From assembly GCF_000337355.1 (NCBI RefSeq), contig NZ_AOJH01000027.1, forward strand, positions 18,800 through 57,342: a DNA stretch of 38,543 nt. Direction: 5' to 3'. Source of the DNA: Halorubrum kocurii JCM 14978 (GTDB lineage: Archaea; Halobacteriota; Halobacteria; Halobacteriales; Haloferacaceae). Shown one piece after another: positions 22,586-37,340 of the stretch. Every line of letters begins with the position of its first letter. Within the stretch, counting starts at the first letter, position 1. The notes under the pieces are model-generated. The model was not told the origin of the DNA, ran no database searches, and was given only the letters and a program-made list of their open reading frames with translations. The translations under genes and the position numbers were made by a program.

Positions 22586-22760
22586 GACATCCTCCCCGCG
22601 CTGAAGCGCGAGGATTCCCACGGCACCGCACCGCTGGGTTGGGATATTGTGGTTTACGACGTAACCTGTTCTTGAGGCGCGAATGCGCCAGCTTCCTTGT
22701 CAAACAGGAACGTCGATGGCTGTGCCAACCAGCCGTTACTCCTATTCACCGACAGATTCG
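22586..22760 (-). ncRNA. Predicted TnpB guide RNA (ωRNA/reRNA) at right end
   Basis: TnpB proteins use a guide RNA that overlaps the 3' end of tnpB and extends to the element's right end. In Halobacterium, sense transcripts overlapping IS1341-type tnpB 3' ends have been reported. Here the 3' part of tnpB plus the downstream GC hairpin (22588-22613) has that layout. The guide portion would be the sequence just outside the right end, reading down from about 22585 on the minus strand. The 5' limit is a guess. Confidence 0.45.
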
Positions 22761-23934
22761 GTGAACTCGGAGATACTTTCTGTCGAATGTTCTCAGCGCC
22801 GTTCACATCTGCGTTCGCCACTGTACCGCACTCATCGCAGACATACAGTCCACGTTCAACACGGTTCGCATCACGCTTCCGGCCACAGCAGGAACACGAC
22901 TTTGAGGTATCCCGCTCAGATACTTGCTCAACCGCTATACCTTCCATCTCGGCTTTGTAGTCGAGGAGGTCGGTGAACCGGTCGAACGCCCACGAGTGTA
23001 GGTCAAGATTGCCGTGTTTCCCCCAGTCCGTTGACTTGCCGTTCTCCTCATTCTCACGGACGCCGGAGAGATCGCCCACCACGATAGTTCCAACACCTTC
23101 CTCAACACACCGCTGGACGATGTGTTTCGAGAGGGTGTGGAAGTAGTGGGTGCGGCGAGCCGACTTCTTCTGGTTCAGCCGAGTGGCCTGCTCGGAGTCC
23201 GAGTCGTTACACCGAGCGATTCGCTTGCTGAAGTAGTAGTCGTCTTGTTTCAAGCAGTTCAGTGGGTACAGCTCGCTGTGACCGTCTTCATACGCGAGTG
23301 CGGCAAAGTTGTTGATACCGAGATCAACACCCACCGTCTTCTCACCGGGGGCGTCAGCCACGTCGACCTCGACCTTACAGACGAAGTGTAGTTCCCATTC
23401 GTCGCCCGTCCACACAATCTTGGCTTGTTGGACGTTCTCCACGGCGGAGAGGTCAACGTCGGGGCGAGTTTGGTACTTACACAGGACAAAATCCGACCAG
23501 TACTCTTTCAGGTTCGATCCTTTTGAGAGTCGAACTCGGTTGTACTGGGTGTCGAGTTTGAAGCCAGCGGTTTTGAACGTTACCGTCGAACGGGGGTGTT
23601 CGTCGCCGTGTTTGCGGTAGCCGGGCGGGTTCGCTTTTGCATCTCCGTTTTGCCGTTTGCCGTACCAACCGTTGAACGCCTCAGCGAGTTCTTGAAGGAC
23701 TCGCTGACTTGACTGCGAATGCAAGTCATCATAGCGTTCGTGTGACTTCAGGTACGTGGTGAGTTCATTGTGGTTTGGGATGTGACCGATTTCATCCCAG
23801 ATTCGGCTGCATGTCCACCGGCCGACGTTCCAGAGCTTACTGGCTGCGAACCCGAGCGAATCAAGGTCGTCTTGCACCCGAGACTGGTTCCGTATGGAAG
23901 CAGTGTAGGTGCGTGTGACGACCCGTTTCGCCAT
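22654..23934 (-). CDS. tnpB: TnpB RNA-guided endonuclease
   Basis: RuvC-type RNA-guided nuclease of an IS200/IS605-group element, 426 residues, intact. RuvC-I Asp204 is in TVGVDLGINNFAAL and RuvC-III Asp376 in TVANADVNGAENI. The zinc finger is CSCCG (Cys347, Cys350) with CDEC (Cys366, Cys369). At RuvC-II the usual Glu of the (E)DL motif is Gly287 (TIVVGDLSGV). A candidate replacement is Glu340 in VSERDTSKSC, as in published TnpB/Fanzor subsets with a rearranged site. Codon use and G+C differ from neighbours. The start ATG has no clear SD sequence. It likely favours retention of the element by cutting empty sites. Confidence 0.94.
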   Translation of the reverse strand: MAKRVVTRTYTASIRNQSRVQDDLDSLGFAASKLWNVGRWTCSRIWDEIGHIPNHNELTTYLKSHERYDDLHSQSSQRVLQELAEAFNGWYGKRQNGDAKANPPGYRKHGDEHPRSTVTFKTAGFKLDTQYNRVRLSKGSNLKEYWSDFVLCKYQTRPDVDLSAVENVQQAKIVWTGDEWELHFVCKVEVDVADAPGEKTVGVDLGINNFAALAYEDGHSELYPLNCLKQDDYYFSKRIARCNDSDSEQATRLNQKKSARRTHYFHTLSKHIVQRCVEEGVGTIVVGDLSGVRENEENGKSTDWGKHGNLDLHSWAFDRFTDLLDYKAEMEGIAVEQVSERDTSKSCSCCGRKRDANRVERGLYVCDECGTVANADVNGAENIRQKVSPSSPNLSVNRSNGWLAQPSTFLFDKEAGAFAPQEQVTS

Positions 23935-29899: not shown

Positions 29900-31297
29900 T
29901 CAGTTCGTCTCCCCGCCGTCGCGCGTGTCTCTTCCGTCGCCGTCGAGAGCGCCTCCGCTCCCGCCGACCGACGCGGCGTAGCCGCCGACCGTCCCTCCCT
30001 CGGGGATCTCTCCGCGCAGCGCGTCGCCGCTCGGGAGGACGGACCCGTCGGCGGGCGGGAGCGGCTCGTCCGGGGCCGGGATCCGCCACGCGCCGAGGAC
30101 GCCGAGGAGCCGGGTCCGGTCGCCCTCGAGCGCGAGCCGGAGCGTCGGCGCGAGCGTCCCGCCGAACCGCTCGCGCTGCTCGGCCTCCGGGAGGTCGGCG
30201 ATCGCGTCGAGCGAGTCGCCCGCGAAGTCGTAGTAGTTGCGGAAGCTCTGCACGAGCACCTCCTCGTCGTGCGCGAACGCCATCCACGAGTACGCCTGAA
30301 ACGGCGCCGCCGGCGGGTTCGTGGCGACCAGCCCGGAGCCGTTCAGGGGGCGGTACTCGCCGTCGAGCGCGTCGGCAACGAAGCCGTAGAGCCCGTCGGG
30401 GCCGGTCACGCCGGGCGCGAACGTGTGGACGTGGCTGCAGACGAACAGGTAGTAGCGCCCGTCGGCGACGACGACGTGCGGGCGCTCAAGCTCCTGGTTC
30501 ACCCCGACCGCGTCGAGTAGCGGCGGGCGGAGCTCCCACGAGAGCGGGTCGCCCGACGGCGACGTCGCGATCCCGACGCAGCCGTTGAACTCCCGGCGAT
30601 AGGTCGTCTCCGGATCGTCGCCCGGTCGCTCCGGCGCGGGCGCGTTCGCCTCGAACAGGAGGTGAGTGTCGCCGGTCGCCGGGTCCTCGAAGAACCACGG
30701 GTCTCGGAAGGTGTAGATCATCCCGCGCGACTGCGCTTCGGTCTCGTACCAGTCGCCGTCGGGCGTCAGCAGCGTCTCGTGGGTCCACGGGCCGGCGAGT
30801 TCGATCCCGTCGGCACCGGCGCTCACCTGGCCGCCGTGCGCGACCGCGATCCGCTGCGTGTACGTCATCTCGTCGGCGCTCTCGTCGCCGGCGGCGGTGT
30901 AGTAGAGGTACAGGTCGCCGTCGTCGTACAGCGCGGAGCCGGCCCACTGCCGCTGGCCGAGCGCACCGCCGTCGAAGACCGGTCCGGCGTCGTGCCACCG
31001 CTCCCCGTCCGACGAGTAGAAACACCGGATCGCGGCCACGTCGTGCCGCTTCCCCGGGAGGAAGTCGGCCGGGGCGCTCAGCGAGAACGCCAGCCGGTAC
31101 CCGTCGACGTCGGCGAGCTCGCCGTGTCGATCGCGGAGCAGCCACGTGTCCCAGACGTGGAGTTCGGGGAAGGGATCGGTCTCGGGGGCGCCGGCCACCG
31201 GCGCGACGTTCCCGCGGCGGCGCTCGATGGACGCGGCCTGCTCTCTCGTCCACCGCGCCCGCGGTCGACCGCCGTCGCTCCTCGTCGTCTCGTGCAT
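29900..31297 (-). CDS. GH68 fructosyltransferase (levansucrase/inulosucrase type)
   Basis: Cleaves sucrose and transfers fructose to growing fructan, fructo-oligosaccharides or water. It has 465 residues with the GH68 triad: nucleophile Asp50 (HVWDTWLL), transition-state Asp199 (YTFRDPWFF) and acid/base Glu271 (VNQELERPHV). No signal peptide or Tat motif is present, so a secreted enzyme would need another route; cytoplasmic action on imported sucrose is the direct reading. A Shine-Dalgarno GGAGGTG (31303-31309) precedes the ATG by 5 nt. GCTTTATC (31321-31328) gives a near-leaderless start; the palindrome at 31376-31389 could give a longer, SD-containing 5' UTR. The C-terminal tail is disordered Gly/Asp. 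Confidence 0.93.
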   Translation of the reverse strand: MHETTRSDGGRPRARWTREQAASIERRRGNVAPVAGAPETDPFPELHVWDTWLLRDRHGELADVDGYRLAFSLSAPADFLPGKRHDVAAIRCFYSSDGERWHDAGPVFDGGALGQRQWAGSALYDDGDLYLYYTAAGDESADEMTYTQRIAVAHGGQVSAGADGIELAGPWTHETLLTPDGDWYETEAQSRGMIYTFRDPWFFEDPATGDTHLLFEANAPAPERPGDDPETTYRREFNGCVGIATSPSGDPLSWELRPPLLDAVGVNQELERPHVVVADGRYYLFVCSHVHTFAPGVTGPDGLYGFVADALDGEYRPLNGSGLVATNPPAAPFQAYSWMAFAHDEEVLVQSFRNYYDFAGDSLDAIADLPEAEQRERFGGTLAPTLRLALEGDRTRLLGVLGAWRIPAPDEPLPPADGSVLPSGDALRGEIPEGGTVGGYAASVGGSGGALDGDGRDTRDGGETN

Positions 31298-31375
31298 ACG
31301 GGCACCTCCGACATCGACCGGATAAAGCCTTCGCAGTCTGAACGGCGGTCGATCACCGATCCTCCCGTCGCGGAA

Positions 31376-31389
31376 ATAAAACGTTTTAT
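31376..31389. promoter_or_regulatory. 14-bp palindrome ATAAAACGTTTTAT, possibly a bidirectional TATA
   Basis: A perfect palindrome in the divergent region between GH68 and trmB. Its right half (TTTTAT, 31384-31389) is 23-28 nt before the ATG of the leader ORF at 31412. Its left half read on the minus strand could start a GH68 transcript near 31350. It may also be a regulator site. Confidence 0.5.
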
Positions 31390-31411
31390 CACGGCCGTGG
31401 TACTCTAAACC

Positions 31412-31528
31412 ATGGCCGAATCACACATCGGGCGACACCGACGAAAACGCGCCGACGGCCGGGGCGCGACGGGGGGACGCGACCGCGCGGACGGCGGGAC
31501 CCGCCCCGAGACCGCGTGCGGAGGATGA
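31412..31528 (+). CDS. Putative 38-residue basic leader peptide of trmB
   Basis: A short ORF, MAESHIGRHRRKRADGRGAT... ending TACGG, Arg/Gly-rich in an otherwise acidic proteome. A TATA element (TTTTATC) lies 22-28 nt upstream of its ATG, so the transcript would start here without a leader. Its TGA (31526-31528) overlaps the trmB ATG (31525-31527) as ATGA, and a GGAGG Shine-Dalgarno stands just before that ATG. This suggests translational coupling, possibly regulatory. The product itself need not have a function. Confidence 0.5.
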   Translation: MAESHIGRHRRKRADGRGATGGRDRADGGTRPETACGG

Positions 31529-32601
31529 ACGTGGACCGCGCAGAACTCACCGACACGCTGAAAGACGCCGGGCTCTCTCCGTATCAGGCGGACGCCTACG
31601 TGACCGTCCTCGAACTCGGCGCCGCGCCCGTCACCCGTGTCGCCGACGCCAGCGGGGTGCCCGACCCTCGGATCTACGACGTGTTGCGCGACTTGGAGAG
31701 CGCGGGCTACATCGAGACATACGAGCAGGAGTCGCTGTACGCCCGCGCGAACAGCCTCGACGAGATCACCGACGAGCTCCGCACGCGAGCGAACCGGTTC
31801 ACGGCGGCGACCGAGGAGATCGAGCGCCGCTGGAACGAGCCGTCCGTCGAGCAGTCCACCGTCAGCATCGTCACCCGCTTCGAGACGGTGATCAAGAACG
31901 CCGACGAGTTCATCCGCGACGCCGAGACGCAGGTGAACGTCTCGCTCGGCGCCGAGCACTTCGAGCGGCTCCGCCCCGCCCTGCGAGCCGCGACCGAGAA
32001 CGGCGTCCGGGTCAACCTCTCCATCCACACGCCGGACGGCGACACCGAGGCCCTCCCCGACCCCGAGGACCTGGTCGACGTTTGCTCGGAGGCGCGCCAC
32101 CGTCGGCTCCCCTCCCCGTTCGTGGTGATCGTCGACCGGACGCGGACCTGCTTCGCGCCGCACGCGGGCTCGACCAACGAGTACGGTGTCCTCGTCGACG
32201 ACCGAACCCACACGTACGTGTTCCACTGGTACTTCCTGACGACCCAGTGGGACACGTGGGAGGCGATCTACACGTCCCTCGACGACGAGCCGCCGATCGA
32301 CTACATCGACATCAGATACTGCGTCCGGGACCTCGCTCCCCTCCTCCGGAACGGCGACACGGTCCGGGTCCGGATCGAGGGGACCGACACCGACACCGGC
32401 ACGGACCGCGTCGTCGAGGGCGTCCTCTCGGACGTCGTGGTCACCGGCGACGCCGACGTGGGCGCGGAGACGATCGCGAGCTACGGCGGGCAGGTCGGAC
32501 TCGTCGTCGAGACCGACGACGGCCCCGTGGAGGTCGGCGGCTGGGGGGCGATGGTCGAGGCCGTCGAGGCGCACCGGATCACGGTCGAATCGATCGTCTG
32601 A
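31525..32601 (+). CDS. TrmB-family sugar-responsive transcription regulator
   Basis: Archaeal sugar-sensing regulator, 358 residues. The N-terminal winged helix is AGLSPYQADAYVTVLELG ... SGVPDPRIYDVLRDLESAGY (~15-65). A coiled coil follows (RTRANRFTAATEEIERRW), then the PLD-like middle part and the C-terminal TrmB sugar-binding domain (from ~240, YIDIRYCVRDLAPLL onward). In Halobacterium and Thermococcus, TrmB proteins repress or activate sugar genes according to bound sugar. The start ATG overlaps the leader-ORF stop and has GGAGG immediately upstream. Flanked by GH68 and the ABC importer, it is the probable regulator of the locus. The ligand is unknown. Confidence 0.93.
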   Translation: MNVDRAELTDTLKDAGLSPYQADAYVTVLELGAAPVTRVADASGVPDPRIYDVLRDLESAGYIETYEQESLYARANSLDEITDELRTRANRFTAATEEIERRWNEPSVEQSTVSIVTRFETVIKNADEFIRDAETQVNVSLGAEHFERLRPALRAATENGVRVNLSIHTPDGDTEALPDPEDLVDVCSEARHRRLPSPFVVIVDRTRTCFAPHAGSTNEYGVLVDDRTHTYVFHWYFLTTQWDTWEAIYTSLDDEPPIDYIDIRYCVRDLAPLLRNGDTVRVRIEGTDTDTGTDRVVEGVLSDVVVTGDADVGAETIASYGGQVGLVVETDDGPVEVGGWGAMVEAVEAHRITVESIV

Positions 32602-35810: not shown

Positions 35811-37265
35811 TTACTGTCCTTCGTTCTCGATGCTGGCGAGCTCTTCTTCGAGGTCGGCCATGGCGTCCTCCGGCGACTTCTCGCCGCGGTACGCGTCGCT
35901 GACCTCGCCCGAGATGAGCGGTGACTCGTCGGGCCACGCCGTCGTCACCGGCCGCGGCACCGTGTTGTCGGCGGCGACGGCGAACGTGTCGAGGAAGTTC
36001 GCCAGGTCGCCGACCTGCTCCTCCGTGGCCTCCTGCGTGACGGAGGCGACCGGCGGCAGGTTGCCAAGCTCCTCGAAGACGGTCAGCATCACGTCCTCGT
36101 TGGCGAACGCCTCAAGCACCGCGATCGCGTCGTCGAGGCGCTGGCTGTTCGGGTTGACGGTGAGGTGCCACCCGCCGAGCGCGTGGCTCGTCCCGCCGGT
36201 TCCCTCGTAGTTCCCCTCGCCCTCCTCGACGCCGTACGGCATCGGCATCACGTCGTAGTCCTCGCCCGCCGTGAACCCCTCGTCGAGGTTGATGTTGATC
36301 GCGTACGGCCAGTTGCGCATGAACGCGGCGTCGCCGCCAGTGAACGGCTCACGCGAAGGCTCCTCGGTGAACTCCACGAGGTCGCTGTTGCTGATCTGCG
36401 GGATGTCCGGGTTGGTGTTCTCCTCCTCGGGCCCGTACATGAACGAGCGCATCATCCTGATGGTCTCGTAGAGGGGCTCCTCGTCGACCGTGATCGGCCG
36501 GTCGCCGACCGGCCCGAACAGGTTCTCGTGGTCGCCGAAGTACGCGCCGCCCATCGAGGTCATCATCTCGTTGAACGTACAACAGGAGGTGCCCTCGTAG
36601 TCGCCTCCCTGGGTGGTGTACCCGTAGTCGAGGTCGGGGTTCTGCTCGAGGACGTCGGCGGCGACCTCGGCGAACTCGGTCCACGTCATCGGCTCCGTGC
36701 TCCAGTCGGACGTGTCGTAGCCGGCGTCCTCGACGAGGTCCTTTCGGTAGTGCATCACCGGGTAGTCGGGGAACACCGGCAGCCCGTACAGGTCGCCCGA
36801 CTCGGGGTGACTGGCGGTGCTGACCGCCGCGGAGAGGTAGTCGTTCTGGACGAAGTCCAGCGTGTCCGAGGACAGCTCCTCGCTGAGGTTGACCAGCTGT
36901 TCGCGGACGATGAACGGGATCGTCCACCCGGAGTCCATCATGAAGATGTCCGGACTCGACCGCCCGGCGTCCAGCGCCGACGTGAAGTCCGTCTGCCGCG
37001 CGCCCGTCTCGAAGTCGCCGGGGAGGAACTCGACGTCGATGTCCTCGCTGAGCCCGGCCTCGTACAGCGCCTCGACGACCGGCTCCTGCGCGTCGGCCCA
37101 CTCCCCGTCCATCGACATCTGGATGGGCTGATCGCCGCCGTCGCCGCCGTCGCCGCCGCCGAGACAGCCGGCGACGCCCATCGCGGCGCCCGTCGCGCCC
37201 GCCGCACCGAGGAACTTCCGTCTCGAAACTCCGCTTTCACCCGCGTCTGGATCTTGATGAACCAT
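35811..37265 (-). CDS. Sugar ABC transporter substrate-binding lipoprotein (family 1, Tat)
   Basis: The extracellular receptor of the importer, 484 residues. The N-terminus has a twin-arginine motif SRRKFLG, a hydrophobic stretch and a lipobox AGC (Cys34 region, GVAGCLGGGD), followed by a Gly/Asp linker, so it is Tat-exported and lipid-anchored. The rest is a type I sugar-binding fold, ending near ALGGWHLTVNPNSQRLDDAI and a helical tail. The bound sugar is not predictable, but GH68/GH32/GH13 neighbours suggest sucrose or fructo-oligosaccharides. It is first in the operon. The A/T-rich upstream region has two TATA-like elements around an inverted repeat. Confidence 0.94.
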   Translation of the reverse strand: MVHQDPDAGESGVSRRKFLGAAGATGAAMGVAGCLGGGDGGDGGDQPIQMSMDGEWADAQEPVVEALYEAGLSEDIDVEFLPGDFETGARQTDFTSALDAGRSSPDIFMMDSGWTIPFIVREQLVNLSEELSSDTLDFVQNDYLSAAVSTASHPESGDLYGLPVFPDYPVMHYRKDLVEDAGYDTSDWSTEPMTWTEFAEVAADVLEQNPDLDYGYTTQGGDYEGTSCCTFNEMMTSMGGAYFGDHENLFGPVGDRPITVDEEPLYETIRMMRSFMYGPEEENTNPDIPQISNSDLVEFTEEPSREPFTGGDAAFMRNWPYAININLDEGFTAGEDYDVMPMPYGVEEGEGNYEGTGGTSHALGGWHLTVNPNSQRLDDAIAVLEAFANEDVMLTVFEELGNLPPVASVTQEATEEQVGDLANFLDTFAVAADNTVPRPVTTAWPDESPLISGEVSDAYRGEKSPEDAMADLEEELASIENEGQ

Positions 37266-37290: not shown

Positions 37291-37340
37291 TAATATAGCT
37301 AATGGGAACAACCCGTGTTGTAGTAAATATATTATAACCG
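37291..37340 (-). promoter_or_regulatory. Importer-operon promoter with inverted repeat
   Basis: An A/T-rich stretch upstream of the binding-protein gene. Proximal TATA-like GCTATATTA (37291-37299) lies 26-34 nt before the ATG. A second A/T block (TTATAATATATTTAC, 37323-37337) is further out. Between them is the inverted repeat ACAAC-CCGT-GTTGT (37308-37321). Depending on which TATA is used, a regulator bound there would act as activator or repressor. Confidence 0.5.

Follow-up and report, generated by a model that had tools for sequence, protein, structure and literature searches.

The trmB locus and its leader

We have analyzed a stretch of 38,543 nucleotides from Halorubrum kocurii JCM 14978, referred to here as the window, in which a gene of the trmB family is preceded by a short open reading frame. 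The TrmB protein of the window combines a winged helix (PF01978) with a sugar-binding domain (PF11495), both scoring above the Pfam cut-offs. Besides a divergent GH68 gene, its neighbours in the Pfam scan include a GH32 gene and an ABC ATPase, and by appearance, apart from any Pfam scan, other nearby ORFs resemble permeases and a substrate-binding protein. The relevant features are as follows.

29900-31297, minus strand: divergent GH68 (levansucrase/invertase) gene, a sugar context (PF02435, E=2.3e-73)
31371-31383, plus strand: BRE-like stretch CGGAAATAAAACG preceding the TATA box (conservation; BRE consensus)
31384-31389, plus strand: TATA box TTTTAT
31387-31402, plus strand: inverted-repeat operator TATCAC-GGCC-GTGGTA over the TATA box, a putative TrmB autoregulatory site (conservation; match scores)
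31412-31528, plus strand: leader ORF of 38 codons, MAESHIGRHRRKRADGRGATGGRDRADGGTRPETACGG, a predicted leaderless uORF (conservation, frame and shuffle tests)
31520-31524, plus strand: Shine-Dalgarno-like GGAGG within the 3' end of the leader, 6 nt before GTG 31531 and 0 nt before ATG 31525
31526-31528, plus strand: leader stop codon TGA
31531-32601, plus strand: trmB-family regulator gene, favoured start GTG 31531, alternative start ATG 31525 (PF11495, E=3.7e-54; PF01978, E=1e-14)
37307-37322, minus strand: tentative second operator-like site TACAACACGGGTTGTT, one mismatch to TAYMACNNNNGTKGTA (11/12)

The first-pass annotation of this DNA had described a leader of 38 codons with a TATA box at leaderless distance, a stop codon overlapping a trmB ATG, and a GGAGG directly before that ATG. 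All of these elements are in place. The leader reads as ATG, 37 codons and TGA; the first T of TTTTAT lies 28 nt before its ATG; the TGA and the ATG at 31525-31527 together form an ATGA; and GGAGG abuts that ATG. The 38-residue leader peptide contains 8 arginines and has a calculated pI of 11.2. From the TATA distance we infer that the trmB transcript is leaderless, starting at or next to the leader ATG.

Conservation of the leader among haloarchaea

The leader was compared in 19 distinct loci of the Halorubrum clade, 76.7-100% identical to the TrmB of the window, every locus having been oriented by tblastn. The distance from the start of the TATA box to the leader ATG is 28 nt, and that from the end of the operator 9 nt, in all 19. 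Columns -41 to -29 upstream of the ATG carry about 1.0-2.0 bits (the reported BRE consensus is CGAAA, PMC4983044), and the ATG itself carries 2 bits per position. The spacer between operator and ATG is variable, with less than 1 bit at each of the eight positions -9 to -2, and position -1 is C in 18 of 19 loci. The leaders range from 15 to 50 codons and all of them stop at the trmB start. In 16 of the 19 the stop ends at +4 relative to the start of codon 31525 or of its homologue, 2 nt before a conserved GTG or ATG. In the other three (L014, L033 and L034) it ends at +3, +10 and +17, or -1, +6 and +13 nt off the usual place; the place or frame of the stop is shifted in these loci, yet it still falls at the trmB start.

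There are no in-frame stops in 726 leader codons, compared with 29 in 1414 codons of the other two forward frames (15/707 and 14/707; naive p about 3e-7), a count that runs from the promoter-fixed ATG to each leader's own first stop and whose value depends entirely on that stop lying at trmB in each of the 19 loci. Shuffling gives the fairer figure. When leader bodies were shuffled and read in a random frame, the probability that the first stop fell between -6 and +20 nt from position 31525 was 0.15-0.45 per locus (mean 0.27); the product over the 19 loci is about 5e-12, which is not a p-value since the loci are related. Leader length has changed at least 14 times among the Halorubrum loci on a tree of 66 TrmB proteins made by a quick method, termination near trmB being kept throughout, and each of these changes could have broken the arrangement of leader and trmB. 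Simple p-values here and below overstate the case, because loci are related to one another both inside the Halorubrum clade and across the two other sets.

Outside this clade, leaders were recognized by a rule: an ATG with TTTA or TTTT 27-31 nt upstream, opening an ORF of 5 codons or more in a frame different from that of trmB, with its stop between -10 and +20 relative to the trmB start. A set of 46 loci remained after 13 were dropped as duplicates and L079 (no upstream sequence) and L052 (a run of N upstream) were excluded. Eight of these have a leader by the rule (L016, L053, L054, L058, L063, L065, L067 and L073, of which L053 and L054 are near-copies), against 0.10 expected from shuffles. 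For a hold-out, 391 genomes of the class were searched with L053 as query at E <= 1e-110; 74 matches listed from other genera, less 8 duplicates, gave 66 loci, and four matches already in the first set (L015-L018) were excluded. The hold-out contains relatives of the first set and so represents new sequence rather than wholly independent lineages; 29 of its 66 loci have a leader, against 0.16 expected from shuffles, with stops ending -5 to +19 relative to the trmB start. Two more loci, L136 and L142, have the operator and a leader ending 6 nt before trmB, which escaped the rule by sharing the frame of trmB, and with any frame allowed 31 of the 66 qualify. Over all leader loci the length is 15-59 codons, stop and start are separated by up to 6 nt or overlap by up to 19 nt (overlaps above 8 nt are reported as rare in H. 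volcanii, PMC10666635), and leaders are present in genomes of family codes f1, f4, f6 and f7. The first-pass annotation had proposed looking for the overlap in other species, and the outcome is positive: a fixed ATG, an open frame and a stop at the trmB start recur in all 19 Halorubrum loci and in other haloarchaea. The leader is thus, on comparative grounds, a real ORF rather than a chance one.

The specificity of the rule was checked on 181 long ORFs in the window and one set of loci, of which it picked out 20: 18 of the 35 trmB genes and 2 of the 146 remaining ORFs. The two other matches, L063:5901-5939 before an ABC permease (PF00528) and L052:557-613 before a PfkB sugar kinase (PF00294), both belong to sugar loci.

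A TATA-like word lies 20-34 nt before trmB in 26 of the 46 and 20 of the 66 loci outside Halorubrum, and at -34 to -20 in none of the 19 Halorubrum-clade loci. Leader and trmB-proximal TATA word exclude each other: the 112 non-Halorubrum loci comprise 46 with the word, 37 with a leader and none with both (Fisher p=4.8e-4 for the 46 loci and 4.1e-7 for the 66, relatedness ignored), and the two occur together in 0 of all 131 loci. Neither a rule leader nor the TATA word was found in 29 of the 112 (12/46 and 17/66), L136 and L142 among them. Mini-ORFs, short ORFs before trmB, lack the leaderless promoter spacing in L055-L057, L015, L059, L070 and L075 and in 6 of the 66 hold-out loci; 17 hold-out loci combine a trmB-proximal TATA word with a short ORF without leaderless spacing and were not counted as leaders. 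On the tree, leader or mini-ORF rows form one clade of 29 rows (support 92, not starred; row L052 unclassified) and 6 of the 7 rows of a second (support 84). At least 3 exchanges between ORF and TATA-proximal start are needed, gain and loss of the leader not being told apart on a tree for which no root was inferred.

Some mini-ORFs are arranged in other ways. In Haloquadratum (L055, L056 and L057) two of them, of 6 and 12 codons, run head to tail through ATGA junctions into trmB. In L015 and L059, read by eye, the stop of an apparent upstream gene overlaps the ATG of a 15-codon ORF (TGATG or TAATG), and this ORF terminates at the trmB start or 5 nt short of it, possibly as a relay within an operon. 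These cases suggest that trmB may have acquired a means of ribosome delivery on more than one occasion. A near-identical 18-codon ORF, MHVNCVLSFPVHTWTTAN, overlaps the trmB start despite a proximal TATA word in L018, L137, L144, L147, L148, L150, L154, L155, L161, L162 and L165-L168; it was taken as chance because its ATG lies upstream of the TATA word of trmB.

The junction, the reading frame and the operator

Two in-frame codons compete as the start of trmB. Position 31531 is a start codon in all 19 Halorubrum-clade orthologues (18 GTG, 1 ATG), and in the alignments it corresponds to the ATG that starts many orthologues having a trmB-proximal TATA box. The homologue of position 31525 is a start codon in 15 of the 19 (9 ATG, 6 GTG) and a non-start codon in L005 (ATA), L014 (TAA), L032 (GTA) and L033 (GCC). 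The probable start is GTG 31531, 2 nt past the leader stop and 6 nt past GGAGG, in preference to ATG 31525, which makes TGA-AC-GTG a likelier description of the junction than ATGA alone. Both starts may be in use, and ATG 31525 would give the 4-nt overlap that is reported as the commonest in H. volcanii, with 354 pairs (PMC10666635).

The Shine-Dalgarno-like motif was scored as the best pairing energy with the anti-SD sequence in the 22 nt before trmB. The mean is -6.2 kcal/mol in the Halorubrum clade, where 16 of 19 loci, the window included, reach dG <= -5. It is -4.1 kcal/mol in 13 other loci with a leader or mini-ORF (excluding L054 and L057 as near-copies and L018 and L026 as probable chance cases), with 5 of 13 at -5 or better and no good motif in the remaining 8, and -2.3 kcal/mol in 26 TATA-proximal loci, with 4 of 26 at -5 or better. 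Pairing is stronger in the ORF-bearing loci than in the TATA-proximal ones (pooled p=3.7e-4); in the latter the 22 nt before trmB are probably hardly transcribed.

The first-pass annotation attached importance to the basic peptide and its Arg codons, and in this respect its account is not supported. In two groups of close relatives the pN/pS of the leader frame is 0.91 and 1.24, within or near the range of the shifted frames (0.72-1.20; 1.20 and 0.75, 1.12 and 0.72), compared with 0.15 and 0.14 for trmB; over 16 loci the leader frame gives 1.05 and the other frames 1.05 and 0.94. These ratios are uncorrected proportions from non-independent pairs. Positional GC in the leader is flat (GC1/GC2/GC3 = 0.73/0.71/0.69), whereas GC3 is 0.83-0.97 in 26 of the 27 predicted genes of the window, for which the gene filter itself asks GC3>GC1>GC2. 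A basic peptide is indeed unusual in an acidic proteome, as had been remarked, but not for the local DNA: over the same 19 leaders the Arg content is 22.5% in the leader frame, with values of 13.7% and 27.4% for the remaining two forward frames. Given a pN/pS of about 1, flat positional GC and intermediate Arg content, the frame is selected and its product, as far as these tests reach, is not. Comparison thus shows that selection keeps the start codon, the open frame and the place of the stop, and not the peptide.

The first 8-10 codons of the Halorubrum leaders are somewhat conserved, with Arg at codon 8 in 16 of 19 and Thr at codon 6 in 11 of 19. Third positions are among the most conserved (A of codon 4, C of codon 6, A of codon 8), and the conservation of this 5' end suggests a constraint on nucleotides at least as much as on a peptide. 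By eye, leader peptides from other genera show no relationship. Folding of the window's leader RNA is weaker than that of its shuffles (z=+1.75, with 194 of 200 shuffles folding as well or better), and this one sequence gave no sign of the regulatory RNA structure of an attenuator. Nor did the conserved regulatory codons or peptide of an attenuator appear among leaders with a pN/pS of about 1 and 15-50 codons, a weak N-terminal consensus remaining. We have accordingly set aside both a function of the peptide, on pN/pS, positional GC and the Arg content of the other frames, and an RNA attenuator, on the poor folding of the window leader.

An inverted repeat TATCAC-N4-GTGGTA of the TrmB operator type lies on the core promoter. 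Operators were scored out of 12 against TACAAC-N4-GTTGTA. Seven leader promoters from outside Halorubrum (L054 excluded) score 7-11, and 26 TATA-proximal promoters 5-7 (p=4e-5); the latter loci were picked by hand, three of them by eye, and are identical to the 26 of the automatic pattern. The consensus was read partly from this first set, so that the hold-out is the fair test: here 22 of 29 leader loci reach a score of 9, compared with 1 of 37 other loci. The TrmB of the window would be expected to bind the site at 31387-31402, and the trmB promoter is probably autoregulated, against which counts the report that Haloarcula hispanica TrmB is not autoregulated in vivo (PMC10817205).

The tentative second site TACAACACGGGTTGTT lies about 41 nt upstream of the start (37265) of a putative substrate-binding-protein gene (35811-37265). 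A strict operator scan of this transporter promoter gave a single site across 9 stretches of other genomes. Matches of 9-10/12, such as TGTAACAACAGGTGTA, lie right at the start of the homologue of the substrate-binding gene in 8 of 9 genomes (L081-L089), at a position different from that in the window, and are suggestive only, being the best of about 105 positions. In these 8 genomes the gene is 67-69% identical; in L088 it is 89% identical and the operator match is only 8. On the strength of these matches in 8 of 9 genomes, the transporter may be under the same regulator.

Proposed ribosome delivery to trmB and other explanations

The reading that we consider likely is that the leader is a leaderless uORF which takes in a ribosome at the 5' end of the transcript and passes it to trmB by termination and reinitiation, downstream of a probably autoregulated promoter. 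To judge from the TATA distance, transcription from the box at 31384 would start at or next to the leader ATG. A ribosome would load at the 5'-terminal AUG, translate 38 codons and terminate at the TGA with GGAGG beneath it. Geometry and conservation suggest that it would then make TrmB by restarting at GTG 31531, 2 nt further on, or else at ATG 31525, which overlaps the stop. The TrmB-type site on the TATA box would make this an autorepressed regulator gene read only by reinitiation; TrmB would then be kept low and tied to translation of the leader, which would control its dose. The first-pass annotation had likewise proposed reinitiation behind a basic leader. The coupling is borne out by comparison (fixed ATG, open frame, stop at trmB, SD-like motif), and the role given to the basic peptide is not.

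A more far-reaching version, in which the leader is a haloarchaeal autoregulation module joining self-repression to a product-free leaderless relay, with TrmB dose set by reinitiation efficiency and maybe tuned by the translational or energy state, is speculative and we think it rather unlikely. If true, it would mean that a translated control element is kept between haloarchaeal families without selection on its product. Closer to an even chance, though short of it, stands a passive relay, in which the upstream position of the operator promoter is accidental and the leader survives only because trmB needs it for its translation, with no regulatory gain. This accounts for a frame without peptide conservation, and it agrees with the report that reinitiation in H. 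volcanii needs a nearby stop and start (PMC10666635). A trmB-proximal promoter is evidently possible, however, given the TATA word in 26/46 and 20/66 other loci, and leaders of 15-59 codons are nevertheless kept over wide divergence and co-occur with the operator, a retention and co-occurrence that hint at some benefit.

Long ORFs are expected in GC-rich DNA, 15-45% of shuffled leaders of a single locus end at trmB, and a GGAGG is present, so the leader might be a chance ORF in a GC-rich 5' UTR, with trmB initiated de novo at the SD motif or from an unseen promoter. We regard this as improbable in view of the joint conservation at 19/19 loci of many lengths, the leaders of 8/46 and 29/66 other loci where 0.10 and 0.16 are expected, and the lack of a TATA-like word at -34 to -20 of trmB in all 19; moreover, at a tested H. 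volcanii 5' UTR the SD motif was reported as unused for initiation (PMC3986360). A functional basic micropeptide with a nucleic-acid or protein partner could be supposed from the pI of 11.2 and the weak N-terminal consensus (Arg codon 8, Thr codon 6). It too deserves little credence when pN/pS (0.91, 1.24 and 1.05) is near that of the other frames and far from the 0.14-0.15 of trmB, GC1/GC2/GC3 is flat beside the high GC3 of window genes, length varies over 15-50 codons in Halorubrum alone with unrelated-looking peptides in other genera, and the conserved third positions at codons 4, 6 and 8 suggest constraint on nucleotides. Stalling at Arg codons, or a nascent chain that alters trmB expression, would suit an Arg-rich leader with several CGA codons near its 5' end; such a sensor is highly improbable, as Arg content falls between those of the other forward frames, the window leader RNA is less folded than shuffles, and neither leader length nor codon content is conserved. 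Finally, the overlap of stop and start in neighbouring frames could recall a programmed frameshift fusing leader and trmB into one protein. This is scarcely credible: relative frame and overlap vary, stops end anywhere from -6 to +19 of the trmB start, in-frame cases with a stop included, and no common slippery site was noticed when the junctions were read by eye.

The proposed termination-reinitiation between a leaderless uORF and trmB has several partial parallels. In the overlapping gene pairs of H. volcanii (Huber et al. 2019, PMC6728339; 2023, PMC10666635), as here, stop and start lie a few nt apart, an SD-like motif sits in the upstream ORF, and the host is haloarchaeal. All nine tested pairs were reported to depend on upstream translation, and removal of the SD motif, whose importance for reinitiation varied, never abolished reinitiation and raised it in 1 of 7 pairs (PMC6728339); SD motifs in haloarchaea are described as amply used for reinitiation and little for de novo initiation (PMC6728339, PMC3986360). 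Those pairs have an ordinary gene as the upstream ORF, in many cases one encoding a partner in a complex, whereas here it is a leader of 15-59 codons that would start the transcript and whose product is apparently unselected. A short ORF likewise precedes a normal gene in the 16 H. volcanii uORFs listed from long 5'-UTRs (PMC4983044, Table 2). Those encode 15-31 aa with a low calculated pI, which the authors interpreted as evidence that the genes are valid, and the section of that paper devoted to them shows no conservation or coupling; here the relay is conserved and the peptide is basic by composition only. A ribosome-delivering uORF has been proposed for translational coupling (PMC12548453), with the same role of delivery to the next gene rather than of making a protein; our case differs in its archaeal family, the comparative evidence, and the leaderless entry with an operator. 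The Thermococcales glycolytic motif TATCAC-N5-GTGATA, listed for TrmBL1 (PMC4158304), has a TATCAC half-site identical to that of the window operator, and the TrmB domains are common to both; the window operator differs in its spacer of 4 rather than 5 nt and its right arm GTGGTA.

In a term look-up, neither 'leader' nor 'upstream orf' occurred in the TrmB review PMC4158304, nor 'leader' in PMC10817205. Among the top matches listed from the open-licence literature, judged by titles and the starts of abstracts, we found no report of a leader ORF before trmB or of a conserved product-free archaeal uORF, which is no proof of novelty, and the matches listed from the sugar-operon literature held nothing on the trmB gene of the window. 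Leaderless translation and termination-reinitiation are already known in haloarchaea; a conserved leader selected for its translation and not its product did not turn up in the literature searched. Such a leader illustrates a way in which ribosomes may reach a gene that lacks direct leaderless initiation where SD motifs are ineffective in driving entry, and it ties this relay to the probable autoregulation of a sugar regulator. The natural variants, with 15-59 codons, gaps and overlaps, could serve to work out the rules of archaeal reinitiation. Short, basic, unannotated haloarchaeal ORFs can also matter for reasons other than a peptide.

The genome of the window contains 9 trmB-like matches, and the best relatives belong to Halorubrum. 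Three of the 8 other matches were inspected as possible carriers of the same device, and none of the three has an ATG-started leader ending at trmB; in one (L090) the upstream ORF ends 92 nt inside the gene. Upstream of another paralogue (L091, G000 contig 60) there is a tandem 21-base repeat that reads as repeats of MRRAPGC. Elsewhere in the window, the ORF at 22654-23934 (minus strand, 426 aa) has a GC3 of 0.66, compared with 0.83-0.97 in the other 26 predicted genes, and was perhaps recently acquired.
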